A stretch of 35,791 nucleotides of DNA from Saccoglossus kowalevskii (lineage: Eukaryota; Hemichordata; Enteropneusta; Harrimaniidae), in the NCBI RefSeq assembly GCF_000003605.2, contig NW_003133355.1, positions 67,293-103,083 of the forward strand, read 5' to 3'. A program made the position numbers and the translations under genes. The notes beneath the pieces were generated by a model. The model had not been told where the DNA came from. It worked only from the letters and a program-made list of their open reading frames with translations, and did not search any database. Positions 6,899 through 26,900 of the stretch are shown one piece after another. Each line of letters starts with the position of its first letter. Within the stretch, counting starts at the first letter, position 1.

Positions 6899-9800
6899 GT
6901 GAGTACGGTAGATTCAGTGTAACTCCAGATATCGTACTAGGCGCCATAACGCGGCGTAGTGTTTACGTAGATGCATTAGGCTACTGTACCACACCTATCG
7001 CTGATCGATCAACATTCAAATTCACAACAAAAACACGCCCATTGCATTGCGTACTGTTCCGTCAGGTATTTGAGCAAGTGTCGTCATTCGTCGTCAGCGA
7101 TCCAAATACCCGACAGTTATTAATTTAATCCGTATCTGCTAACGATGCCGGGGTCGTCGCTTCAGTTAAACGAAGTAGCATTGAGGCTACTGTGAATAAT
7201 GTTTCTGTAGTACACTGCGTACGGCATTGAAATCTGCGTTAAAGCACGGTCCCTCTACTATGACTGTTGACTGAGGCAAAAAGGTTCAAGTTAATGAGAC
7301 GTTACGCCGCGACCCAGTTTCGTATGTGGTTGATATTTGATTTAGATCTATTGACAGATGTCGTGCCGCCCTGCTTATCAGTACCGGTTCGTTACTAGTA
7401 CGTTATTTTTTTGAAGGTGACTTCCACCGAGATTCCGACCTTGATTCGTTTTCATTCAGTGCTTCTCTTGGCCATGGGTTATCTGTGCACTTAATTTAGC
7501 TGTCAAAATAGTATGTTTGTAGTTTAGAATCCTGGATCTATTTACAGCAACTATCAGTATCTATATATTTACCCAGATGTGGGGTTTGTGTTACTATGAC
7601 TTTGAGCAAATAATTTAAACCGCAGATACAGTGTATGAAAAGATTTCAGTATTTAAATAGTAATCTGTGACGGTGCATCATACTTGAATGTGTCAGGAAA
7701 TCCCTGTAATTAAAACTATCAAAATGCAATTAAGTATACTGAAGAATACTTTATTTTCGCTTGGAATTTATTTTCGCTGAAGGAATGATTCCGTGAAAAT
7801 AAAATCCAGTGAATAATCTTTTTTTCCTATATTTCACATTCAACTCATCAAATATAAATTCCATACAAAATGCCCAAAAGGCCTTTTCAGTGAAAATTAA
7901 TACCAGCTAAAGTAAAGTATTTCACAGTATTTTGTTTTTTACAGTTTCAGTTTTGCATAACAATCATGAGTATATGTGTAAGAATAGAATAGAATTGAAT
8001 AGAATAGAATTGAATAGAATTGAATAAAATAGAATAGAATAGAATAGAATAGAATAGAATAGAATAGAATTGAATAATGCTTTATTACCACCTTAATGAA
8101 ATCTGACATTTCAGTTTTGGTAATTGCTGTATTAAAGCTTTTGAAAATAAACTACACATACAATACAATAATATATTGTGCCAATAAGCATTACCATTGG
8201 TCTAACAGGAGGATTGGTGATGAAAAATAAACTACACATACAATACAATGATAGATTTCAAATAAACAACAACTAAATTACACTGAAAATATAGCACAAC
8301 AATACATCAATTGATTTTCACCTTTACTTTTCTTATTTTGTAGGCTTTCTGTATGTGATTTAATAACCCGAGTAGACATTGTTTGTTAATTGTGTATTTA
8401 GTAAGATGATGTCATAGTTAGTTTGCCTGATTGGCATAATTCAAAGCGCATTCCATGTTACACACAAACAAACAAACAAACAATTTGAAAACATAATACT
8501 GTAGAATACTTTATTTTCGCTTGGAATTGATTTTCGCTATTTTCGCTGAAGGAATGTTTCCGTGAAAATAAAATCCAGCGAATATACTTTTTTTCCTATA
8601 TTTCACATTAAACTCATCAAAAATCAGTGAAAATAAATTCCACACAAAACGCCCAAAAAGCCTTTTCAGCGAAAATTAATTCCAGCGAATATAAAGTATT
8701 CCACAGTATTGCTATGGGTCCCATTTCACACACGACAAGACACAACTTGTGTTGCTGAGATGGATGATAGGGCATGTTTTATTTTAAACAGTCGTTTGAG
8801 TCTTCAAAATTACTGTTTATCATAGGTTTAGTTTTTCCAGTGAGTAATATTTTCATTCAGTCGCTGGCTGCCCACTCAAACACCACAATGGATCCTGATA
8901 TAGAAAAACCAGGGTGGATGCACAGCAAATTGGTGCGCACTGTTTTTTATCAAGCAGATGAGCAAAACATGAACAAGTAACTGTCTGGAAAAATTGCAAT
9001 ACAAATTTGATGCAATTTGCTTAATTTGCAGAGTATAGACAATCAGAGTTACTGTGAAATACTTTATTTTCCATGGAATTAATTTTCACTGAAAAGGCTT
9101 TTTGGGCATTTTGTGAGGAACTTATTTTCACTGATTTTTCACTGCGTTTAATGTGAAATATAGGAAAAAAAGTATATTCGCTGGATTTTATTTTCACAGA
9201 ATCATCCCTTCAGCGAAAATAGCGAAAATAAATTCCAAGCAAATTCCATCCACATTTCGCTATACCAGAATCCATTGCAGTATTTGAGAGGGAAGCCAGC
9301 AATCAAATGTAAATACCACTGACTCTGATGACGCTGTGGATCCAGGGCTAAGATTTAGTTTAATCCAAACTGTTACTTTATGTCTCTGCAAGGAAGTCAA
9401 TAATGTACGTAATAATAATAAAAATAAATTCAAACAATAATAATCATCCAATGAGAGTGCTTAGACTGGTACAGATTCTCCCATGCATCCCTGGAAATGC
9501 GGTTATTATGAAAAGTTTTAATAATACATGTCCTTGTTTGGGTCAGCCGCTCAGTGGCGTTCGATATCAGCTTTTAATATGTTAGCAGACAGAATGAACA
9601 TCTATATACACAGCAAACATAGTGAATTACATTTTCCCCAAAATTCACTGTAGCAATCCAAGAAAAATCGTTGTTTGCCTTTTATAACTAAAAAATGATG
9701 CTATTTTTACACCCTCTGATTTCCTCTGTTAGGTTGTGTGTAAACTAGTTTTTAACATGACACGGCTTTGGTGGTTTTAAAGATAGAGGTGATTGGTGAT

Positions 9801-15800: not shown

Positions 15801-18800
15801 ACAGCCATTGTAGATAAGTGGGTATATAATAATACTACTATATTGACATAGGCTGAATAATAGTAGACGTTAGTATAGCGCTGTGTATTCGCACAAAATA
15901 AAAATGCTCTTAAGGTACTCAAACAAAACGCATAAAAAGTTCTCAGTGACAATAAGCCTGTTTGAATAGCATTGTGTATCCACACAAAATAAAAATGCTC
16001 TTAAGATACTCAACAAAACACATAAAAAGTTCTTAATGACAATAAGTCTGCTTGAAAAGATAGGTTTTCAACTTCTTTTTAAAAATGTCAACTGAACTGC
16101 TATTCTTTACATCAGGGGTAGATCGCTCCTTACTTGGGAACAGCGTAATAAAAAGGATGCTTTTTCAAATGTTTTTTGTGGCAGCTGTTGGTGTATTTAA
16201 TGTAGAAGCCTACTCATAAATGAACATGCCAAGGATTTATTAATTTTGTAATAAATTGTACTTCAGAGAAATATAAGGATATTGACTTAAAAAAATTGGT
16301 GGTCACCAGAATCATTTTTGAGAAATTAAACGTTGTATTTAATTGGATAGTGGCTATTTTATCAGTATTATAATATTTTTACAATAGGTTCTAATGGCAG
16401 AGATATTATGCCATAAATTATTGAAATCTTGTAATCAAGAAACGTTGTTTTATATCAATGCAACTTATGTGGAATATCAGCAATGTGATTAAACTTTTGC
16501 TAATCGAGTTGCAAAAATAAGTGTTCTGGGTTGAAAAACTCGTACCTTAGAACTGTAAATATTTGCAAATCTCCAAAGTAGAGTCGTAATTTTTCCCTGA
16601 AATAGCTTTGCTAGATATGTAAACAGCTAACTTATAACTCACTATTGAAGGGGAAGTCAAGCCAAACAATACAATGACCCCCCCAAGAAAAAGCTTCGCA
16701 AATGTAGGAGAATGCAATTTACAGTGTTTTTATATCACTTTTCATTCTCTAGATATTCAACTTTTCATCAGTATTATGTAGTCAGCCATCTTGATTCTCA
16801 AGCAAAAGATTATGGGTAAAGTATGACATCATAGAATCTGTTGTCAGAAATTAAGAAAATGATTTCATCTATAACTTCTAATTTTACCCACAATCCTTTG
16901 CTGAAGAATCAAGATGGCGGTATACAAAAATTGATGAAAAATTGAATATCTAGAGAATGAGAAGTGATATAAAAAAACTGTAAATTGCTACCCCAGACCA
17001 TTCGTCCCGGTGTTATCGCTATCGCCACACGAGACTCCAGCTTGTCTCCTATACAATTTTCCTTCCGCCCACTTAATTTTAATATTCATATGACCTTTGC
17101 ACTGACATCGATAGCCAATCGCATTCGACCGCGGACGTCACTCTAAATAAACAACTGAATAAATTAATATACCATATTTGGAAGATAGCGGGTAAATTCA
17201 ACGTTGTTGGTGTGTTCCTTCGGGTTCCGAAGTCGCACGAAACGAGTTCATGTTCCGTTATCTTTCGCAAGTAAAACAGGTCGATATGTATTAAACATGG
17301 CATTTGTTTTCTTGTTTTAACCCCCTTATTACGCAAGCTTCCGTCGAAGTGGTGTTTTTTTCGACGATTTGTGGCATGTTGCAAAACGAACGAAACATTG
17401 CGGCATTCTTAGCGGTGGATAAGGGATCGACTATGTCGTCACATTTATGTCTCGTTTGAAAGAGAATAAACAACCGCTCAGAAAAATATGTTGCTAATAT
17501 TTAAGTGCGGTGCCTTGAAATCGCCTGCCCGACGTCCAAATTTTCAAAAAGATGTTCGATTTGCAATGACGACCGTTCATATGTACTAGGCGACGTTACT
17601 AATTACTACTAGGGTCGGTGTTTGCATTAAGAATTATAGAACAAAAGATCAGCAAAGCGGTGCTTTTGTCGGCGATTTTGTCAAAGGGAATATTGATAAA
17701 ATGTTGCAAAACAGAATCGCGAGTTGGGTGAAAAATTGCGCCGGCGGCATTCTCAGCGATGGCGACACCCGAGAAACACCGTGTCACGGTGCATTCGTGC
17801 ATCAGTACACCGAAGAAATACATACATATTGTTGCGGACGACTATTGTAGACTGTGTTCGTGTAGTCTTCGAGTTTGTGGACAGTTAAAGTCATGTGTGA
17901 ATTTATTCAAGCCAGGAAAAGCAGGAGGGATAACCTGCCCGACCACGTTCAAGTTCAAAACGACGTTCCATAACTTTCTCACATTCAATTTGCAATGATG
18001 ACCGCAGTTCATATGTACTTAGCGACGTGACGGACATTAACAACCATGATGTTGAAAAGGAGTTTGATGAAAATATGCCATTTCCAATTAGAAATCATTT
18101 TGATTTGATTTATGGATGGCGAGCACCGACACTCCGATCCGATGAACTAATCAAAACTAAAATGGCGTGTGTCACGTGACTTTGTTTACTAAAGATAGCG
18201 TGGGCGTTTGATTGACACTCAACTCATTAGTATTCCACCAATCACAGCTACATCTACTTTCTGGATGTGCGCAGTCAAATTGTATAGGAGACAAGCTGGA
18301 GTCTCGTGTGGCGATAGCGATAACACCGGGACGAATGGTCTGGGGTAGTAAATTGCATGTTCTTACATTTGCTGAGCTCTTCCATCGAGGAGTATTATGT
18401 TGTTAGCCTTGACTTTCACTTTAAGATCAACGGATTTATTCCCATTCATTCATGAACACAATATATAACACAACTTTTGATATTTTTGGGATCTCCAAAG
18501 TAGAGTCGTATCTTTTCCCATAATTGACCTCTCTCAATACGTAAGCAATCCAAATAGCTAATTTCTGATTTACCTCTGAAGTTCAACAGATTGGTTCTCA
18601 ATTCGTCATAAACGCAATTCTGTCACAACTTTTTATATTTTTTTTTATCTTTTTTTTTTTAGGGAAAAGTATCAAAACGAGGTAGAAAACTAGTAGATTA
18701 TGACAGTGCGAGGCACGCTGTGAACGCTTGTCAGAGTACGAAGAAAAAAGACGAGGCTAAAACCATGAAGGTAGTGCATGATCACAACAACTGGTATTTC

Positions 18801-21800: not shown

Positions 21801-24800
21801 GCATACCTGTCACCTTGGATTGAACACAGAAACAAAAGAACTGCATCCTGGGAAAGTGTGCCACAGACTCAATGAAAAAACCACAGCCATTGGTCAAGAA
21901 TTATTCTCAAACTGATAGGGATAGTGGTCAACCAGGCTTCATAGCTCTGGCCTCACCTGAATAGTTGAATTGTCATTTGCTGTCCTGCCCTGTCATGTTG
22001 TCAAAAGTTATTTGAACCCAGTGAAAATAAAAGTAATCTACTGTATGTTAATTATATGTCCTCTTCCAAGGAAAAAAATGTATTATATTCTCATTTAGAA
22101 TCTGTTCTCTTTTTTTAACTAGAGATTCTGACAGTTATGATGATTCTCATTCACCATCACCAAAAGCGCCCTCAACACCGGAACAGAAAAGTAGTTTAGC
22201 AAGAGTTTATAATGTCACAATTCCGAACAATGAGAATGAATTGGACAAACACAAAACTAAAGTTCTCTCGGCTCCAGCTGCAACACCCGAAGATGATACA
22301 GAGTACAAGGTTCCCAGGGCAACTGTGGAAAATGGTGATGAGGGTCGGCCTGTGGGTGGCGCTGAAGGAGGTGCCTATGAAATGGTTCAAATTGGTGCAC
22401 AGGTAATTATTTGTCATACAGCGCCATCTAGTGACATACTATAGAAATAGTGCTTTGTTGTAGTCCTAAATATGTTGAATATAACGTCCTCTTGTATTGA
22501 ATGTAGTACCCCCTAGTGCTGTAATTCCTCTGACTTTTGTACCCCTCTCAATACTGGTAGTTACCATCTATTTCCTATCATATTGCTCTGTCAGAAGTTT
22601 TGAGAATATCGCCCTCTAGTGTTGTACTAAGGGCCATCTAGTGTTGTAATTCATCTGATGACCTTTGTACTCCCTTCGAAAGTTAGTCCCTTCAGCCTAC
22701 CATGCTGCTATGTCAGTGTAGTGCCCTCTAGTTTTGAGAATATTGCCCTCTAGTGTTGTACTTAGCCCTCTAGTGTTGTAATTCATCTGATGACCTTTGT
22801 ACTTCCTTCTATATAGTTAGCCTCTTCGGCCTACCATGCTGCTGTGTCAGTGTAGTGCCCTCTAGTTTTGAGAATATCGCCCTCTAGTGTTGTACTAAGT
22901 GCCTTCTAGTGTTGTAATTCATCTACTGACTTTTGTATCCATCTCCAAGTTACCCTCTCCAGCCTACCATACTGCATCATCTGATTTTCAAATTGACCCA
23001 GCAACAACAACAATAACAGTCCCACCGACAACAACAACAACAACAACTACATCAACAATAACAACAACAGAGGAATATTTACCACCGGGTGTACTATATA
23101 AGGTAGGAGGAACTAGTTTTAATGACCATCAGTTTTGAGCTATATTTTTGTACATGTATTCTGTTATTTGAATTCGCATTCCCAATAGTCAGATTTTAGA
23201 CTATTTGACAATGTCAAACCAAGCTTGCGCGCGTAAGCCATATGGCTAAGGGCACCAATAGCCGTATTCAGTCCATAGAGGTTTTATTATATACCTTATG
23301 GGTATAATTACAATTTTACCATGGTGTGACCGCAACCACAGGGAGGCAATTTAGAATGACGCACTTTGTTTTGATTGATGAAAGCTGGGCCAGGCGGGAT
23401 ACAAGAAATTATTGCCCGGATGTGAGGGCGCACTTCCAATAGCGTTACAAGGTCGGGCAATACAAGGTGCATGATAATTATGATTTCACTATGTAAAATG
23501 ACAAATTATCACTATGTGAGTCAGATTTTACACTATTTTACTATGTTAAACCGTACTCTCCTTATACCAATCGTATTAAAGAGTTCAATCAAATTATTTA
23601 TTATTGGTGCAAGGTAGGTATGATTTCACTTTGTAAAATGACAAATTATCACTACCTAATTATCACTATCTGATTCTGATGTACAATCTACAGAAAACGT
23701 CTCACTGACCCCTGACTGCTCTAAGCATTGTAAGGATTTCGGTTTTTGTTCAGTTTACGAGATGTCTTGTTCAACAGAATCTTGAAATCATATTTGAAGT
23801 TCTTCCTCAAATAAAATAAGTCATACATGCACACATGTGAATGGTCTTAAGTATTTGAGTGCAATGAAAATTACGATTAATATGGTGATTACTGGTAGAT
23901 ACCTCAACCTTGTACCCGTATTTTGGATGGGTCACATGCACAAACTTGATATGTACTAGTTGTGAATTCTTTCTTCCTTTCCCTGTAGGTATTCTTTTCA
24001 TTTTCTGTACAATGTCATGTATTTATATAATTATCTTCTAACAAAGAAATAAAAAAAATAAAAACTTGACATGTACACAATGCATCTTGGGATACATACA
24101 TACGTGTCTATTTCTTTCATGTTGCAATTCAAGATGGCCGACTGGTGAAATTTTTAAAGTTGAACAAGTTTAAATGAGTTTTACATGTGTTGCGTACGTT
24201 GCTTTGAGTCCCATGTCAAATACGACACGATGCGACCTCCACCACCCTTTAACGCGGGGGAGTCGTCACCTGTGCTGCGTCAGATGGCCATAGCATGTCA
24301 TTGTTTATAAACCAGCATCTACCTATGAGCCTTTGCCTTTGCGTGAGACTCAATTCCCGCATGTGCGCAGGTGACGACCCTCTCGCTTTAAACTTGATAA
24401 CTCATGGAAACCATAATGCAATTAATTATATGTTTACTCCTGTTTTTAGCTCCGCTGTCGACTTTGTCGAGCGGAGCTTATATGAGTGACTGTCCGTCGT
24501 CCGTGTCAATGTTTTACTTTTTCGACTTCTTCTTGAAAACTACAAGCCTGAATGCTTTGATACTTGGTGTATTAGTACCTTGGGTAGACCTCTCTTAGGT
24601 TTGTTCGTTTCATGTTGATATCTTCAATTCTCTAATTTTGGTGAATATTTTTGTCATTTTTGGTAAAAAGTGATATTTTCGACTTCTTGTTAAAAACCGC
24701 AAGTCCAATTGCTTTGATATTACATATATTGGTACTACATGTAGACCTCTCTCAGATTTGTTCATTTTGTAATGATATCTTTAATTCTCTAATTTTGTTG

Positions 24801-26900
24801 AATATTTTTGCCATTTTTGGTAAAAAGTGATATTTTCGACTTCTTGTTAAAAACCGCAAGTGCAATTGCTTTGATAATACATATATAGGTACTACATGTG
24901 GACCTCTGAGATTTGTTCATTTTGTAATGATATCTTTAATTCTCTAATTTTGGTGAATATTTTTGTAATTTTTGATAAAAAGTGATATTTTCGACTTCTT
25001 GTTAAAAACCGCAAGTCCGATTGCATTTATATTACATTTATAGGTACTACATGTGGACCTCTCTCAGATTTGTTCATTTTGTAATGATATCTTTAATTCA
25101 CTAATTTTGGTGAATATTTTTGAAATTTTTTGTAAAAAGTGATATTTTTGTCCCATTGCTTGATACTATACATATTGTTCATTTTCTAATGATATCTTCT
25201 GTTCTTTAATTGAAATGTGCATTGCTAACAGCGGAGCTATCTCAGCCGAGAGGCTGCTTGTTATTTTATTGTCATGGTAACAAACTTTTTATTTCACTTC
25301 AGGTGCGAGCTACACATAAATATGAAAGTATGGACACGGATGAACTTAGTTTTGAAAAAGGAGAAATTATATTTGTTGTGCCCTTCGATGATCCAGATGA
25401 TCAGGTGAGTGGCCTCCCCCATTCCAGTAATAGTTTCTTCCACCGGCTACACAATGAGAAACAATGAACAGATGAAATGAAACATTAGGACAAACAATTT
25501 TTTTGAGTCTTGTATAATTTACAATTTATAATACTAACAGAAAACTCTAAAAATGCTAATTTAAATCTGGTTATTAGAAAATTGTCTAATTTATGCAAAT
25601 TTAGGTAAATTATATTAATGATTTTCAACCCCAAACTAATCTGGTTTTTGGGTTGTAAAATACTAGTACTGTAAAATACTTTATTTTCGCTTGGAATTAA
25701 TTTTCACTGAAAAAATGAAAACTAATGTAACAATGAACTAAAAAAATGAAAACTAATGTAATAATGAACCAAAAAATAAAAACTGATGAAACAATGAACC
25801 AAAAAATGAAAACTGATGATACAATGAACCACAAAATGAAAACTGATGATACAATGAACCAAAAAATGAAAACTGATAAAACAATGAAGCAAAAAATGAA
25901 AAGTGATGAAACAATGAATTAAAAAAAATTAGAACTGATGATGCAATGAACCAAAAAATGAAAACTGATAAAACAATGAAGCAAAAAATGAAAAGTGATG
26001 AAACAATGAATTAAAAAAATTAGAACTGATGATGCAATGAACCAAAAAATGGGAACTGATGATACAATGAACCACAAAATGAAAACTGATGATACAATGA
26101 ACCAGAAAATTAGAATTGATAATACAATGAATCAAAAAATTAGAACTGATGATACAATGAACCAAAAAATAAAAACTGATGATACAATGAACCAGAAAAT
26201 GAAAACTGATGAAACAATGAACCAGAAATAAAAACTGATGAAACAATGAACCAAAAATGAAAACTGACGAAACAATGAACCAAAAATGAAAACTGATGAT
26301 ACAATGAACCAGAAAATGAAAACTGATGATACAATGAACTAGAAAATGAAAACTTATGATACAGTGAACCAGAAAATAACTGATGATACAATGAACTAAA
26401 AATGAAAACTAATGATACAATTAACCAGAAAATGAAAACTGATGATACAATGAACTAGAAATGACAACTGATAAAACAATAAACCAAAAATGAAAACTGA
26501 TGATACAATGAACCAGAAAATGAAAACTAACGATACAATGAACTAGAAAATGAAAACGTATAATACAATGAACCAGAAAATAACTGATGATACAATGAAC
26601 CAAAAGTGAAAACTGATATACAATGAACCAGAAAATGAAAACTGATGATACAATGAACTAGAAAATGAAAACTGATGATACAATGAACCAAGAAATGAGA
26701 ACTGATGAAACAATAAACCAAAAATTGAAACAATGAACCAGAAATGAAAACTGATGAAACAATGAATCAAACTACATGTATGAAACAATAAATTTATGTT
26801 CTATCCTTGTTTGTTACAGGATGACGGTTGGTTGATGGGTACAAGATCGTCAGACGGAGCCAGGGGCGTTTTCCCAGAAAATTTTACAATTAAGATATAG
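6824..26900 (+). CDS. BIN1: amphiphysin/BIN1-like N-BAR and SH3 protein (11 coding exons, whole gene span)
   Basis: The coding parts are 6824-6898, 12058-12193, 12814-12908, 15310-15405, 18663-18770, 20158-20243, 21472-21630, 22123-22402, 22950-23102, 25303-25404 and 26820-26900. They total 456 residues, close to shorter BIN1 isoforms. Residues about 9-25 form the H0 amphipathic helix, about 26-240 the BAR dimer that senses and bends membranes, about 250-395 a linker, and 397-456 the SH3 domain that in this family binds dynamin-type proline motifs. Hallmarks are [55 protein letters not shown] and GVFPENF. Exons 4 to 6 are 96, 108 and 86 nt, sizes I recall for vertebrate BIN1. The expected role is membrane tubulation in endocytosis or T-tubule-like structures. 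The linker has no clathrin/AP2-binding motif and no polybasic phosphoinositide segment, unless alternative exons were missed. One invertebrate gene may be ancestral to both AMPH and BIN1, so the symbol marks the family. Confidence 0.95.
7735..7931 (+). mobile_element. MITE family B, copy 1
   Basis: An element of about 200 bp bounded by inverted ends: TACTGAAGAATACTTTATTT on the left and AAAGTAAAGTATTTCACAGT on the right. Sub-terminal blocks of TTTTCGCTGAA and its complement occur inside. It is non-coding and has several relatives in this window. Confidence 0.8.
7981..8078. repeat. (AGAAT)n pentanucleotide array, possible retroposon tail
   Basis: About 19 units of AGAAT/TGAAT. On the - strand it reads as AATAAAGCATTATTC followed by (AATTCTATTCT)n, the form taken by simple-repeat tails of some LINEs and SINEs, so it may mark the 3' end of a minus-strand retroposon. 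Next to it a segment AAATAAACTACACATACAAT occurs twice (about 8145 and 8226). Confidence 0.7.
8496..8712 (+). mobile_element. MITE family B, copy 2
   Basis: Ends are TACTGTAGAATACTTTATTT and AATAAAGTATTCCACAGTAT, which are inverted repeats of one another. The interior matches copy 1 closely, including CCGTGAAAATAAAATCCAG and TTTTTTTCCTATATTTCACA. Confidence 0.88.
9049..9246 (-). mobile_element. MITE family B, copy 3 (inverted)
   Basis: It begins TTACTGTGAAATACTTTATT and carries the family interior in the opposite orientation to copies 1 and 2 (GGCTTTTTGGGCATTTTG, then TATAGGAAAAAAAGTATATT). The far end is truncated after AATAAATTCCAAGC, before the terminal AAAGTATTYYACAGTA. Confidence 0.82.
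10055..10230 (+). repeat. imperfect direct duplication (about 115 bp)
   Basis: GCACATTAAATTACCATGAT with the following GATGGTCACA segment recurs about 113 bases later as GTGCATTAAATTGCCATAAT and GATGGTCACATTG. Two copies are visible and no gene lies in them. Confidence 0.6.
10314..10726. other. assembly gap (413 N)
   Basis: A run of N inside intron 1. Open frames drawn across it on either strand are artefacts of unknown bases. Confidence 1.
11790..12024 (-). mobile_element. tRNA-derived SINE, head next to exon 2
   Basis: On the - strand the sequence carries an RNA polymerase III A-box-like TAGCATAGTGG at 12010-12000 and a B-box-like AGTTCAAATCC at 11968-11958, about 31 bases apart as in a tRNA gene. 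The lower-strand continuation to about 11790 looks like a SINE body. The tRNA stems are not well preserved, so this is a retroposon rather than a working tRNA. The head lies 34-36 bases before the exon 2 acceptor. The left limit is approximate. Confidence 0.62.
12058..12193 (+). CDS. BIN1: exon 2: BAR domain, helix 1
   Basis: It encodes residues 26-70 plus one base of codon 71. It begins [20 protein letters not shown], matches the most conserved part of amphiphysin BAR domains, and continues [19 protein letters not shown]. The acceptor is TTCATAG and the donor AAAG/GTTGGT. The initial ATG codon is internal, not a translation start. Confidence 0.95.
12667..12790 (+). repeat. 37-bp minisatellite just before exon 3
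   Basis: Three full units and a partial fourth of ACCGGTTTTGACAGATGACC plus AGTTTACACTGGATTAA. Units 1 and 3 differ at only one base (ACCGG/ACCAG). The array ends 23 bases before exon 3, within the region where a branch point would be expected. Confidence 0.92.
12814..12908 (+). CDS. BIN1: exon 3: BAR domain
   Basis: It completes codon 71 (Ala) and encodes residues 72-102, [20 protein letters not shown] then [11 protein letters not shown]. This corresponds to the family segment [20 protein letters not shown]. The acceptor is TTTATTTCAG, the donor GTTTGT, and the 3' phase is 0. Confidence 0.95.
13230..13705 (+). repeat. tandem/dispersed repeat with GATGAAACTTGGTA motif (3 diverged units)
   Basis: Three related blocks each contain a CCACNGATATC or AAGAACCA start, GATGAAACTTGGTA, a TGCGCAGA motif and an end resembling ATATTAATTACYTAATTTGCATAATT. 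Spacing is about 150-180 bases. Parts recur in intron 5 (near 19270, 19400 and 19930), so this is a dispersed family. Confidence 0.6.
13925..14065 (+). repeat. dispersed repeat (CCACCAGACTTTCTCGCCC family)
   Basis: CACCAGACTTTCTCGCCCAA recurs at 20267 in intron 6, and the following CTGGAAATAAACC...AACAGACAAAATTTT...GGAAAGTGCAGACTATTTTG recurs, with an insertion, at 19660-19795 in intron 5. Three partial copies therefore lie in this one gene. No terminal repeats were found. Confidence 0.6.
14164..14358 (-). mobile_element. MITE family B, copy 4 (diverged)
   Basis: The order of motifs follows copy 5 just downstream (GAAATACTTCATTTTTGCTG at the start, AGCGAAAATAGCGAAAAATT near the end), with many more substitutions and a truncated right terminus. 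It lies only about 30 bases from copy 5 in the same orientation. Confidence 0.7.
14387..14597 (-). mobile_element. MITE family B, copy 5 (complete)
   Basis: Ends are TACTGTGGAATACTTTATTT and AATAAAGTATTCTACAGTA, near-perfect inverted repeats of about 30 bp including TTCGCTGGAATTAATTTTCG. This is the best preserved copy in its orientation. Confidence 0.9.
15310..15405 (+). CDS. BIN1: exon 4: BAR domain (donor lies in a tandem duplication)
   Basis: It encodes residues 103-134, [20 protein letters not shown] then [12 protein letters not shown], matching NNDLLWMDYHQKL...GQFPDIK in vertebrate BIN1, and 32 codons as there. The donor is AAA/GTATGT. The last 20 coding bases are the start of the first unit of a 90/91-bp tandem array, so identical donors exist further downstream. 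Confidence 0.93.
15386..15748 (+). repeat. 90/91-bp tandem array spanning the exon 4 splice donor (4 copies)
   Basis: Units start at 15386, 15476, 15567 and 15658. Each contains TCAATTTCAAGAYATGAAA followed by GTATGTAC, a CTAAT, and CCCTCTRTGNCTCAG. The first copy begins inside exon 4. The first period is 90, the later ones 91. Donor-like GTATGT recurs at 15496, 15587 and about 15678. Confidence 0.95.
15749..16565 (+). other. intron 4, left part, no gene
   Basis: Contains a local duplication of AATAAAAATGCTCTTAAGRTACTC (about 15896 and 15986) with AAAGTTCTNAATGACAATAAG. Otherwise it is AT-rich sequence without coding signs. Confidence 0.5.
16989..18347. mobile_element. 1359-bp DNA transposon with 71-bp perfect TIRs and 9-bp TSD (Mutator-like, non-autonomous)
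   Basis: Bases 16989-17059 and 18277-18347 are exact inverted repeats of 71 bp starting TACCCCAGACCATTCGTCCC. The element is flanked by direct GTAAATTGC at 16980-16988 and 18348-18356. The matching arm of the disrupted fold-back element shows this 9-mer only once, which confirms it as target duplication. Nine-base duplications with long TIRs are typical of Mutator-like elements, but the superfamily is inferred. No transposase is visible. The interior has two imperfectly duplicated blocks (about 17340-17600 and 17655-18030), one with a 79-codon open frame. Just inside both ends lie CCAAT boxes plus a GACGTCAC or GTCACGTGAC element. Identical TIRs suggest recent movement. Confidence 0.88.
17759..17998 (+). 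CDS. possible captured first exon inside the transposon
   Basis: An ATG in a YY1-like GCGATGGCGAC context opens 79 codons: [20 protein letters not shown] and onward. It includes [17 protein letters not shown], with a C-x2-C-x-C pattern that could bind metal, and [11 protein letters not shown]. Composition is protein-like and GC content is higher than in the flanking intron. No known family is assigned. It may be a host first exon captured by the element, a fragment of the autonomous relative, or chance. A related but broken copy lies in the first internal block. Confidence 0.35.
   Translation: MATPEKHRVTVHSCISTPKKYIHIVADDYCRLCSCSLRVCGQLKSCVNLFKPGKAGGITCPTTFKFKTTFHNFLTFNLQ
18425..18662 (+). 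other. intron 4, right end
   Basis: TCTCCAAAGTAGAGTCGTA at 18493 repeats the sequence at 16570 on the other side of the fold-back element, followed by loosely similar sequence, so a direct repeat of about 100 bases flanks the nested insertion. A long T-rich tract ending TTTTTAG forms the exon 5 acceptor. Confidence 0.55.
18663..18770 (+). CDS. BIN1: exon 5: BAR domain, concave-face basic segment
   Basis: It encodes residues 135-170, [20 protein letters not shown] then [16 protein letters not shown], 36 codons as in vertebrate BIN1. It contains the family signature [14 protein letters not shown] and the basic KKKDEAK that lies on the membrane-facing side of the BAR dimer. The donor is GTAGTG. 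Confidence 0.97.
19014..19480 (+). repeat. dispersed repeat with AGCCCCCGTTCGG head and about 130-150-bp internal units
   Basis: It starts AGCCCCCGTTCGGTCGAAGT, whose CCCGTTTTCGG-type head folds onto CGAAAACGGGGAC, followed by GTGCGTCCGTGCGTCCGTCT. About three units each contain CATTCAAAYTTGGTACAT and a GATGGYCGACTGGCAGSCATCTTG motif. One 98-codon open frame here is a by-product. Confidence 0.65.
20158..20243 (+). CDS. BIN1: exon 6: BAR domain, helix 3
   Basis: It encodes residues 171-198, [20 protein letters not shown] then EELPSLYD, plus two bases of codon 199. It matches [21 protein letters not shown]. The length of 86 nt equals the vertebrate exon. The acceptor is preceded by a pure T tract and the donor is GTATGT. 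Confidence 0.97.
20792..20955 (-). mobile_element. MITE family A, complete copy in intron 6
   Basis: Left end TTAAAGCGAGAGGGTCGTCA and right end TGACGACTCCCCCGCTTTGA are inverted repeats of about 30 bp. The interior, read on the - strand, holds GCGTGTCATTGTTTACATAC and GTTGTTATCGTCGGTTGGGA. Confidence 0.85.
21036..21460 (+). repeat. 35-bp minisatellite ending at the exon 7 acceptor (about 12 units)
   Basis: Units of TGTGTTTCCAAATTGCAATT plus TTTCAATAAGTTCTC are almost identical. The twelfth unit runs into TGTGTTTACTTCACAG, so the pyrimidine tract and AG of exon 7 directly continue the array. Long open frames over it arise from three 35-bp units making 105 bases. Confidence 0.96.
21472..21630 (+). 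CDS. BIN1: exon 7: end of BAR domain
   Basis: It completes Ser199 and encodes residues 200-251, [40 protein letters not shown] and onward to VGRPS, plus two bases of Arg252. It corresponds to [23 protein letters not shown] and the following LNDVL segment, which are separate exons in vertebrates as I recall. The donor is AAG/GTGAGT. Confidence 0.95.
22123..22402 (+). CDS. BIN1: exon 8: linker, Ser/Pro-rich
   Basis: It completes Arg252 and encodes residues 253-345. It starts [20 protein letters not shown], with SP/SP/TP sites for proline-directed kinases, and ends [18 protein letters not shown] then [10 protein letters not shown]. The last part resembles the ATVNGTVEGG segment before the vertebrate BIN1 SH3 domain. 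No clathrin or AP2 box (DLDFDP-, PWDLW- or FEDNF-type) is present. Choosing acceptor CTAG/A keeps the frame; the next AG would give an early stop. The donor is GTAATT. Confidence 0.9.
22403..22949 (+). repeat. about 130-bp tandem repeat array filling intron 8
   Basis: Blocks containing GCCCTCTAGTGTTGTA, ATTCATCTGATGACCTTTGT and CCTACCATGCTGC recur with periods near 125-136, giving three to four diverged copies. The last copy continues into the start of exon 9 (to about 22981). Confidence 0.85.
22950..23102 (+). CDS. BIN1: exon 9: threonine-rich linker leading to SH3 (start uncertain)
   Basis: The 3' part [11 protein letters not shown], just before donor GTAGGA, matches the ELPPGFLYK/DLPPGFMFK segment before the SH3 domain, so the frame is certain. 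Upstream the frame reads [17 protein letters not shown], encoded by CAA/ACA microsatellite. Exon 8 ends in phase 0, and acceptor CCAAG/TTA at 22949/22950 fits that phase. The better-looking CCCAG/CA at 23001 would need one extra base. With the 22950 start the first residues, [14 protein letters not shown], come partly from tandem repeat. A missed small exon is the alternative. Confidence 0.7.
23103..24247 (+). other. intron 9, left part, no gene
   Basis: Contains a local repeat of TATGATTTCACTNTGTAAAATGACAAATTATCACTA (23478 and 23619) and some hairpin-like patches near 23228-23300. No coding exon is supported. Confidence 0.5.
24248..24392 (+). mobile_element. MITE family A, complete copy in intron 9
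   Basis: Left end TTTAACGCGGGGGAGTCGTC and right end GTGACGACCCTCTCGCTTTA are inverted repeats. The interior is GGCCATAGCATGTCATTGTT and CTACCTATGAGCCTTTGC, in the same orientation as the copy at 3186. Confidence 0.85.
24449..25262 (+). repeat. 814-bp repeat element with AGCTCCGCT head and 156-bp internal units
   Basis: The head TTTAGCTCCGCTGTCGACTT pairs with CGAGCGGAGCTTATATGAG to form a hairpin. The tail is AGCGGAGCTATCTCAGCCGA. Between them lie about four tandem units of 155-157 bp marked by AAAAAGTGATATTTTCGACT and TTTGTTCATTTTGTAATGAT. Head and tail share GCGGAGCT, so this is one element with an expanded middle. Confidence 0.75.
25303..25404 (+). CDS. BIN1: exon 10: SH3 domain, first part
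   Basis: It encodes residues 397-430, [20 protein letters not shown] then [14 protein letters not shown]. This covers the first strand (ATHKY in place of ALYDY), the acidic RT loop DTDELSF and the diverging turn KGE. Both splice sites, YK/VRA and DDQ/DDG, are at the same places as in vertebrate BIN1. The acceptor is CACTTCAG, the donor GTGAGT. Confidence 0.97.
25670..25714 (-). mobile_element. MITE family B, terminal fragment
   Basis: ACTGTAAAATACTTTATTTT plus CGCTTGGAATTAATTTTCAC is the family's terminal inverted repeat. It breaks off directly into the 30-bp minisatellite, so only one end remains. Confidence 0.8.
25706..26769 (+). repeat. 29/30-bp minisatellite in intron 10 (about 35 units)
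   Basis: Units of about AAAATGAAAACTGATGATAC plus AATGAACCA repeat for over 1 kb, with single-base length changes. A few larger repeats are present (for example 25870-25925 recurs at 25963-26018). The 30-bp period yields long open frames on both strands (such as repeats of [10 protein letters not shown] on the - strand), which are by-products. The array ends about 50 bases before exon 11. Confidence 0.96.
26820..26900 (+). CDS. BIN1: exon 11: SH3 domain end and stop
   Basis: It encodes residues 431-456, [20 protein letters not shown] then NFTIKI, followed by TAG. Trp434 and Pro449/Phe452 are the ligand-binding SH3 residues of the GWL and GVFPENF motifs. The loop between them is shorter than in vertebrate BIN1, which has a WNQHKELEKC-like insert. 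The acceptor is TTTGTTACAG. Confidence 0.97.

Follow-up and report, generated by a model that had tools for sequence, protein, structure and literature searches.

The 35,791-nucleotide stretch of the Saccoglossus kowalevskii genome analyzed here (NW_003133355.1, positions 67,293 to 103,083; hereafter the window) carries, inside an older fold-back element, a 1359-bp insertion bounded by long terminal inverted repeats (TIRs) and a 9-bp target site duplication (TSD). This locus raises the question of which superfamily of DNA transposons the insertion belongs to. It was addressed through the geometry of the insertion, its copies elsewhere in the genome, and the coding remnants that these copies retain.

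Nested elements in an amphiphysin/BIN intron

A sequence-only reading of the window had described a 1359-bp element with 71-bp exact TIRs and the same 9-mer, GTAAATTGC, on both sides, and direct reading and recomputation confirmed each of these features (Table 1). By an arithmetic argument, an exact inverted repeat of 71 bp lies far outside what chance would produce. The element interrupts the right arm of a fold-back palindrome spanning 16645-18424; with the insert and one 9-mer removed, the left arm pairs with both parts of the right arm. The left arm holds the target site a single time, as GCAATTTAC (16714-16722). The nesting and the empty site in the other arm, both proposed in the earlier reading, were borne out by this arm alignment and by GCAATTTAC. 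The placement of the whole structure in an intron is likewise supported: the next exon, at 18663-18770, encodes 36 residues that match the BAR domains of BIN2, BIN1, and amphiphysin (best E 5.4e-11), and an SH3 exon lies farther along the window, within 25210-25467.

The fold-back element belongs to a large family, with at least 103 matches in the genome when 40 of 686 first-look candidates were scored. Pairs of matches on opposite strands, spanning 721-854 bp, were found in at least eight contigs (C3172, C351, C4634, C763, C1851, C1422, C2261, and C672). At each of the 40 scored places, the best match covers the target site (query positions 70-78) in one piece; these fold-back copies thus have no insert there, in agreement with the empty-site reading.

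Other repeats were observed in the window. A 57-nt direct repeat, 75% identical between its two copies (16569-16625 and 18491-18547), lies on both sides of the entire fold-back structure. By eye, several imperfect copies of a repeat unit between AGCTCCGCTG-like ends occupy 24450-25240, just ahead of the SH3 exon, and the minus-strand open reading frames (ORFs) at 25929-26788, which share a recurring motif, form a tandem repeat array.

Table 1 Features of the nested elements (window positions) and of the DUF6589/helicase pairs found in two other contigs
Feature	Position	Strand	Description or basis
Inserted element	16989-18347	+	1359 bp; read as a non-autonomous DNA transposon, probably AcademH-type
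Left TIR of the inserted element	16989-17059	+	71 bp
Right TIR of the inserted element	18277-18347	-	71 bp
Left TSD copy	16980-16988	+	9 bp, GTAAATTGC
Right TSD copy	18348-18356	+	9 bp, GTAAATTGC
Decayed second copy of the left-gene region, upstream of the original within the element	17400-17599 (approximate)	+	Direct repeats; self-comparison of copy L003
5' part of the left gene	17759-17944	+	Weak zf-AD-like ORF; ORF and Pfam scan
Helicase gene start codon and first codons (MIS)	18090-18098	-	Remainder deleted in the window copy, kept in copy L048
Left arm of the outer fold-back	16645-16820	+	Inverted repeats; local alignment of arms
Right arm of the outer fold-back, inner part	16883-16988	-	Continues at 18357-18424; arm alignment
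Right arm of the outer fold-back, outer part	18357-18424	-	Severed from the inner part by the inserted element; arm alignment
DUF6589/helicase pair, contig C14	DUF6589 269907, helicase 273593	+/-	Facing; 3.7 kb between starts
DUF6589/helicase pair, contig C1561	DUF6589 36863, helicase 42157	+/-	Facing; 5.3 kb between starts

Copies of the element in the genome

The genome from which the window was taken (572 Mb, 4830 contigs) was searched with the full element and with the TIR. The former gave at least 127 matches at 40 places, some of them fragments, and the latter at least 40 matches, each 100% identical over positions 1-71; in both cases, 40 of 92 candidates were scored. The TIR matches fell at 29 places, 11 of which showed both ends and seven of which lay beyond those reached with the full element.

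Nineteen copies with both ends were available for counting TSDs: 18 compared together (15 with 9 bp, one with 10 bp, and two with none) and copy L019 (9 bp), eight of the 19 containing N. The 9-bp duplication expected by the earlier reading was therefore found in 16/19, and a 10-bp TSD, ATAGAACACA, in one (L050). The remaining two (L007 and L011) have both TIRs without a matching duplication, for which recombination between copies is perhaps a cause. No clear motif was detected in the 16 nine-bp target sites, whose GC content is 32% (35% for the window).

Thirteen copies contain fewer than 100 N; in every one of them the TIR stops at position 71, with no mismatch in nine and one or two in the other four. 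These copies differ from one another by internal deletions, and their pairwise difference has a median of 1.04% (range 0.34-8.0%). Most of the long matching pieces are 94-100% identical to the window copy, while pieces laid across deletions show 74-86%. The low divergence among copies supports a recent spread of the family, in line with the recent activity suggested from the perfect TIRs of the window copy.

No autonomous copy was found in 20 stretches of up to 9.9 kb read inward from copy ends, nor in the pieces read later: these ran into N, contig ends, truncated ends beside other sequence (L034 and L054/L056), or further non-autonomous copies (L038, L048, L050, and L057). N was present in 30 of the 48 loci examined, some of which overlap. 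A match in contig C10 (L058) proved to be a diverged short relative, and no transposase was recognizable in the 1.2 kb read there. Three individual copies showed other particularities. About 200 bp of other sequence lies beside an assembly gap in L051 (G000:C2350), where other copies carry the left-gene region; L034 (G000:C3085) is a left-end fragment of ~560 bp upstream of an exon that by eye resembles tafazzin; and L013 (G000:C3325), alone among the 13 aligned copies, has a small palindromic CCCTCAACACCC-type insertion in its right half.

Coding remnants and a transposase candidate

Remnants of two genes were recognized. In the left half, the window copy loses its frame where an internal deletion occurs, near element position 946, and several other copies keep a forward ORF; in L047 it reaches 199 codons, the final part of which is right-end sequence past a deletion. 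The resemblance of this left ORF to zf-AD is weak (Pfam E 0.41, 11.4 bits against a cut-off of 28), and no relative was found in a search of solved structures. Diverged relatives of it are present elsewhere in the genome.

On the opposite strand, beside the right end, the window copy retains only three codons of a helicase gene. More is preserved in L048, where an 83-codon ORF (8546-8794) begins with ~68 helicase codons, including LPTGFGKS; the codons that follow lie beyond a deletion junction. The Pfam DEAD model matched this ORF with an E of 4.7e-5 and 23.6 bits, under the gathering score of 26. In a search of the PDB, 28 of the 33 distinct sequences matched (E up to 0.1) were named WRN, RecQ, RECQ5, or BLM, the best being WRN (E 2.1e-4); the other five were one ATP-dependent DNA helicase, three DEAD-box entries, and one tau entry. 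The helicase query gave 15 matches in the genome and no relative in the viral contigs searched. The same helicase start recurs in contigs C1505 (near 67.7 kb, 99% identity over residues 1-68), C176 (near 186.8 kb, 97% over 1-33), and C285 (92% over 1-24). The Walker A motif is contained in the starts of L048 and C1505, those of C176 and C285 being shorter, and no complete helicase was seen, owing to deletions and gaps. The C285 locus (L055) runs into N, and huge open-frame values suggest that the C1505 and C176 loci do so too. Of the 13 aligned copies, four retain the helicase start codon (L001, L003, L013, and L021), and in all four it occupies the identical place beside the right end. Taken with the forward ORF of the left half, this opposite-strand helicase start leads us to propose that the parent element probably carried two inward-reading genes, one from each end.

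The transposase of the family itself was seen in none of the copies read. As a candidate, we tested DUF6589 (PF20231), a Pfam family of unknown function. It gave 11 matches at nine loci in this genome (E ≤ 0.001) and no match in 14 control genomes. At two of the nine loci, in contigs C14 and C1561, the DUF6589 match faces a helicase relative (44% identity over 48 residues in C14, 40% over 45 in C1561), and it is these two arrangements that make DUF6589 a candidate transposase (Table 1). In both pairs, the DUF6589 match and the helicase match are weak; the DUF6589 scores are near the cut-off of 27 bits, at 26.8 (35.8 with in-frame neighbors) and 29.2. For nine loci and 15 helicase matches, the chance expectation is 0.003 pairs within 6 kb. 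Two pairs appeared in 0 of 20,000 simulations, in which hits were placed uniformly and the 6-kb limit was the one set after the pairs had been seen. No helicase match is listed at the other seven loci, which may reflect divergence or absence. Likewise, no relative of the zf-AD-like ORF is listed at either pair, and no link between that ORF and DUF6589 was seen in this genome.

Assignment of the family

AcademH is a lineage of the Academ superfamily. It is reportedly the subject of a 2020 paper by Kojima (Mob DNA 11:15), the title of which is said to refer to animals and fungi. The definition of AcademH used here comes from one passage of a later paper (PMC10045372), which gives TSDs of 9 or 10 bp for AcademH and of 3 or 4 bp for AcademX and ties these lengths to the encoded helicase and nuclease; a passage in another (PMC10799480) lists both AcademH and KolobokH among the sources of helicases. 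The family studied here has the 9-10 bp TSD of AcademH (9 bp in 16/19 copies, 10 bp in one), and the helicase encoded by AcademH is matched by the helicase start in its relatives. A difference from AcademH is that the copies read here are deletion derivatives without a transposase. On the grounds of TSD and helicase, the 1359-bp element probably belongs to an AcademH-type family of cut-and-paste transposons, as a non-autonomous derivative with internal deletions.

Two genes would be expected in the full element. One would run rightward from the left half and encode a weakly zf-AD-like N-terminus with, presumably, a transposase (possibly DUF6589) after it; the other, for a RecQ-like helicase, would run leftward from near the right end. 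The transposase, presumably supplied in trans, would recognize the 71-bp TIR, and insertion would take place with a stagger of 9 bp, sometimes 10 bp, and with no clear preference for a target motif. Deletions of varied extent inside the element would then have produced many short copies keeping both ends, one of which would have landed in the right arm of the older fold-back element in the amphiphysin/BIN intron.

The earlier reading had favored a Mutator-like element and expected a transposase of the MuDR/Rehavkus type. Passages in two papers (PMC6446971 and PMC5225508) indeed describe TSDs of 8-11 bp and long TIRs as features of Mutator-like elements (MULEs), as well as their uptake of host gene pieces, so that the element might be a Pack-MULE-like derivative with a captured helicase start. 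The TSD and the TIR lengths (tens to hundreds of bp) of MULE, Phantom, and Rehavkus elements, as given in PMC6446971, are like those of this family. As TSD length is common to MULE and AcademH, it cannot separate them by itself; the helicase does, and the RecQ-like helicase start at the right end sets this family apart from MULE, Phantom, and Rehavkus. That start lies at one fixed place in all four of the 13 aligned copies that retain it, and another gene begins in the left half; convergent genes of the element's own account for this better than capture does. DUF6589 is also faced by such a helicase in two other contigs. No MULE transposase was recognized among the three element ORFs scanned with Pfam. 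Rehavkus is described in PMC6446971 as having a minisatellite before the 3' TIR and a PHD-finger transposase; no tandem array was found at 16600-18470 of the window, where the copy is a deletion derivative. The Mutator/MuDR/Rehavkus assignment is thus not supported, since the relatives keep a RecQ-like helicase start and TSD and helicase together fit AcademH, and we now consider a MULE origin quite unlikely.

Nearly as unlikely is a separate, unnamed superfamily in which a RecQ-like helicase accompanies a DUF6589 transposase and which resembles AcademH in duplication length only. The word DUF6589 appeared in no paper of the literature collection searched, which would suit such a superfamily; parsimony argues against it, as both TSD length and helicase fit the AcademH description in the passage cited above (PMC10045372). 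A KolobokH-type element would likewise bring a RecQ helicase, together with a Kolobok transposase, and passages in one paper (PMC9587614) report that KolobokH encodes such a helicase, that one other Kolobok has it on the complementary strand, and that KolobokH is found in fungi only. The RecQ helicase is thus common to KolobokH and this family. Kolobok elements insert at TTAA, however, whereas the TSDs found here are 9-10 bp of varied sequence; this TSD length contradicts the KolobokH reading, the restriction of KolobokH reports to fungi also counts against it, and we regard it as extremely improbable.

The AcademH-type assignment adds a new, young family of a known kind for an animal. It also makes clear that Mutator cannot be diagnosed from a 9-bp TSD with long TIRs, and it corrects a superfamily call drawn from TSD length alone, which was plausible but is probably wrong. 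There is about an even chance that DUF6589 serves AcademH-type (or sister) transposons as their transposase domain, in convergent orientation to the gene of a RecQ-like helicase. If this is true, the 9-10 bp TSD would arise from the transposase-helicase pair, and animal proteins annotated as DUF6589 would be transposon proteins. The convergent DUF6589/helicase pairs offer a testable identity for a domain of unknown function and are the part most worth following.
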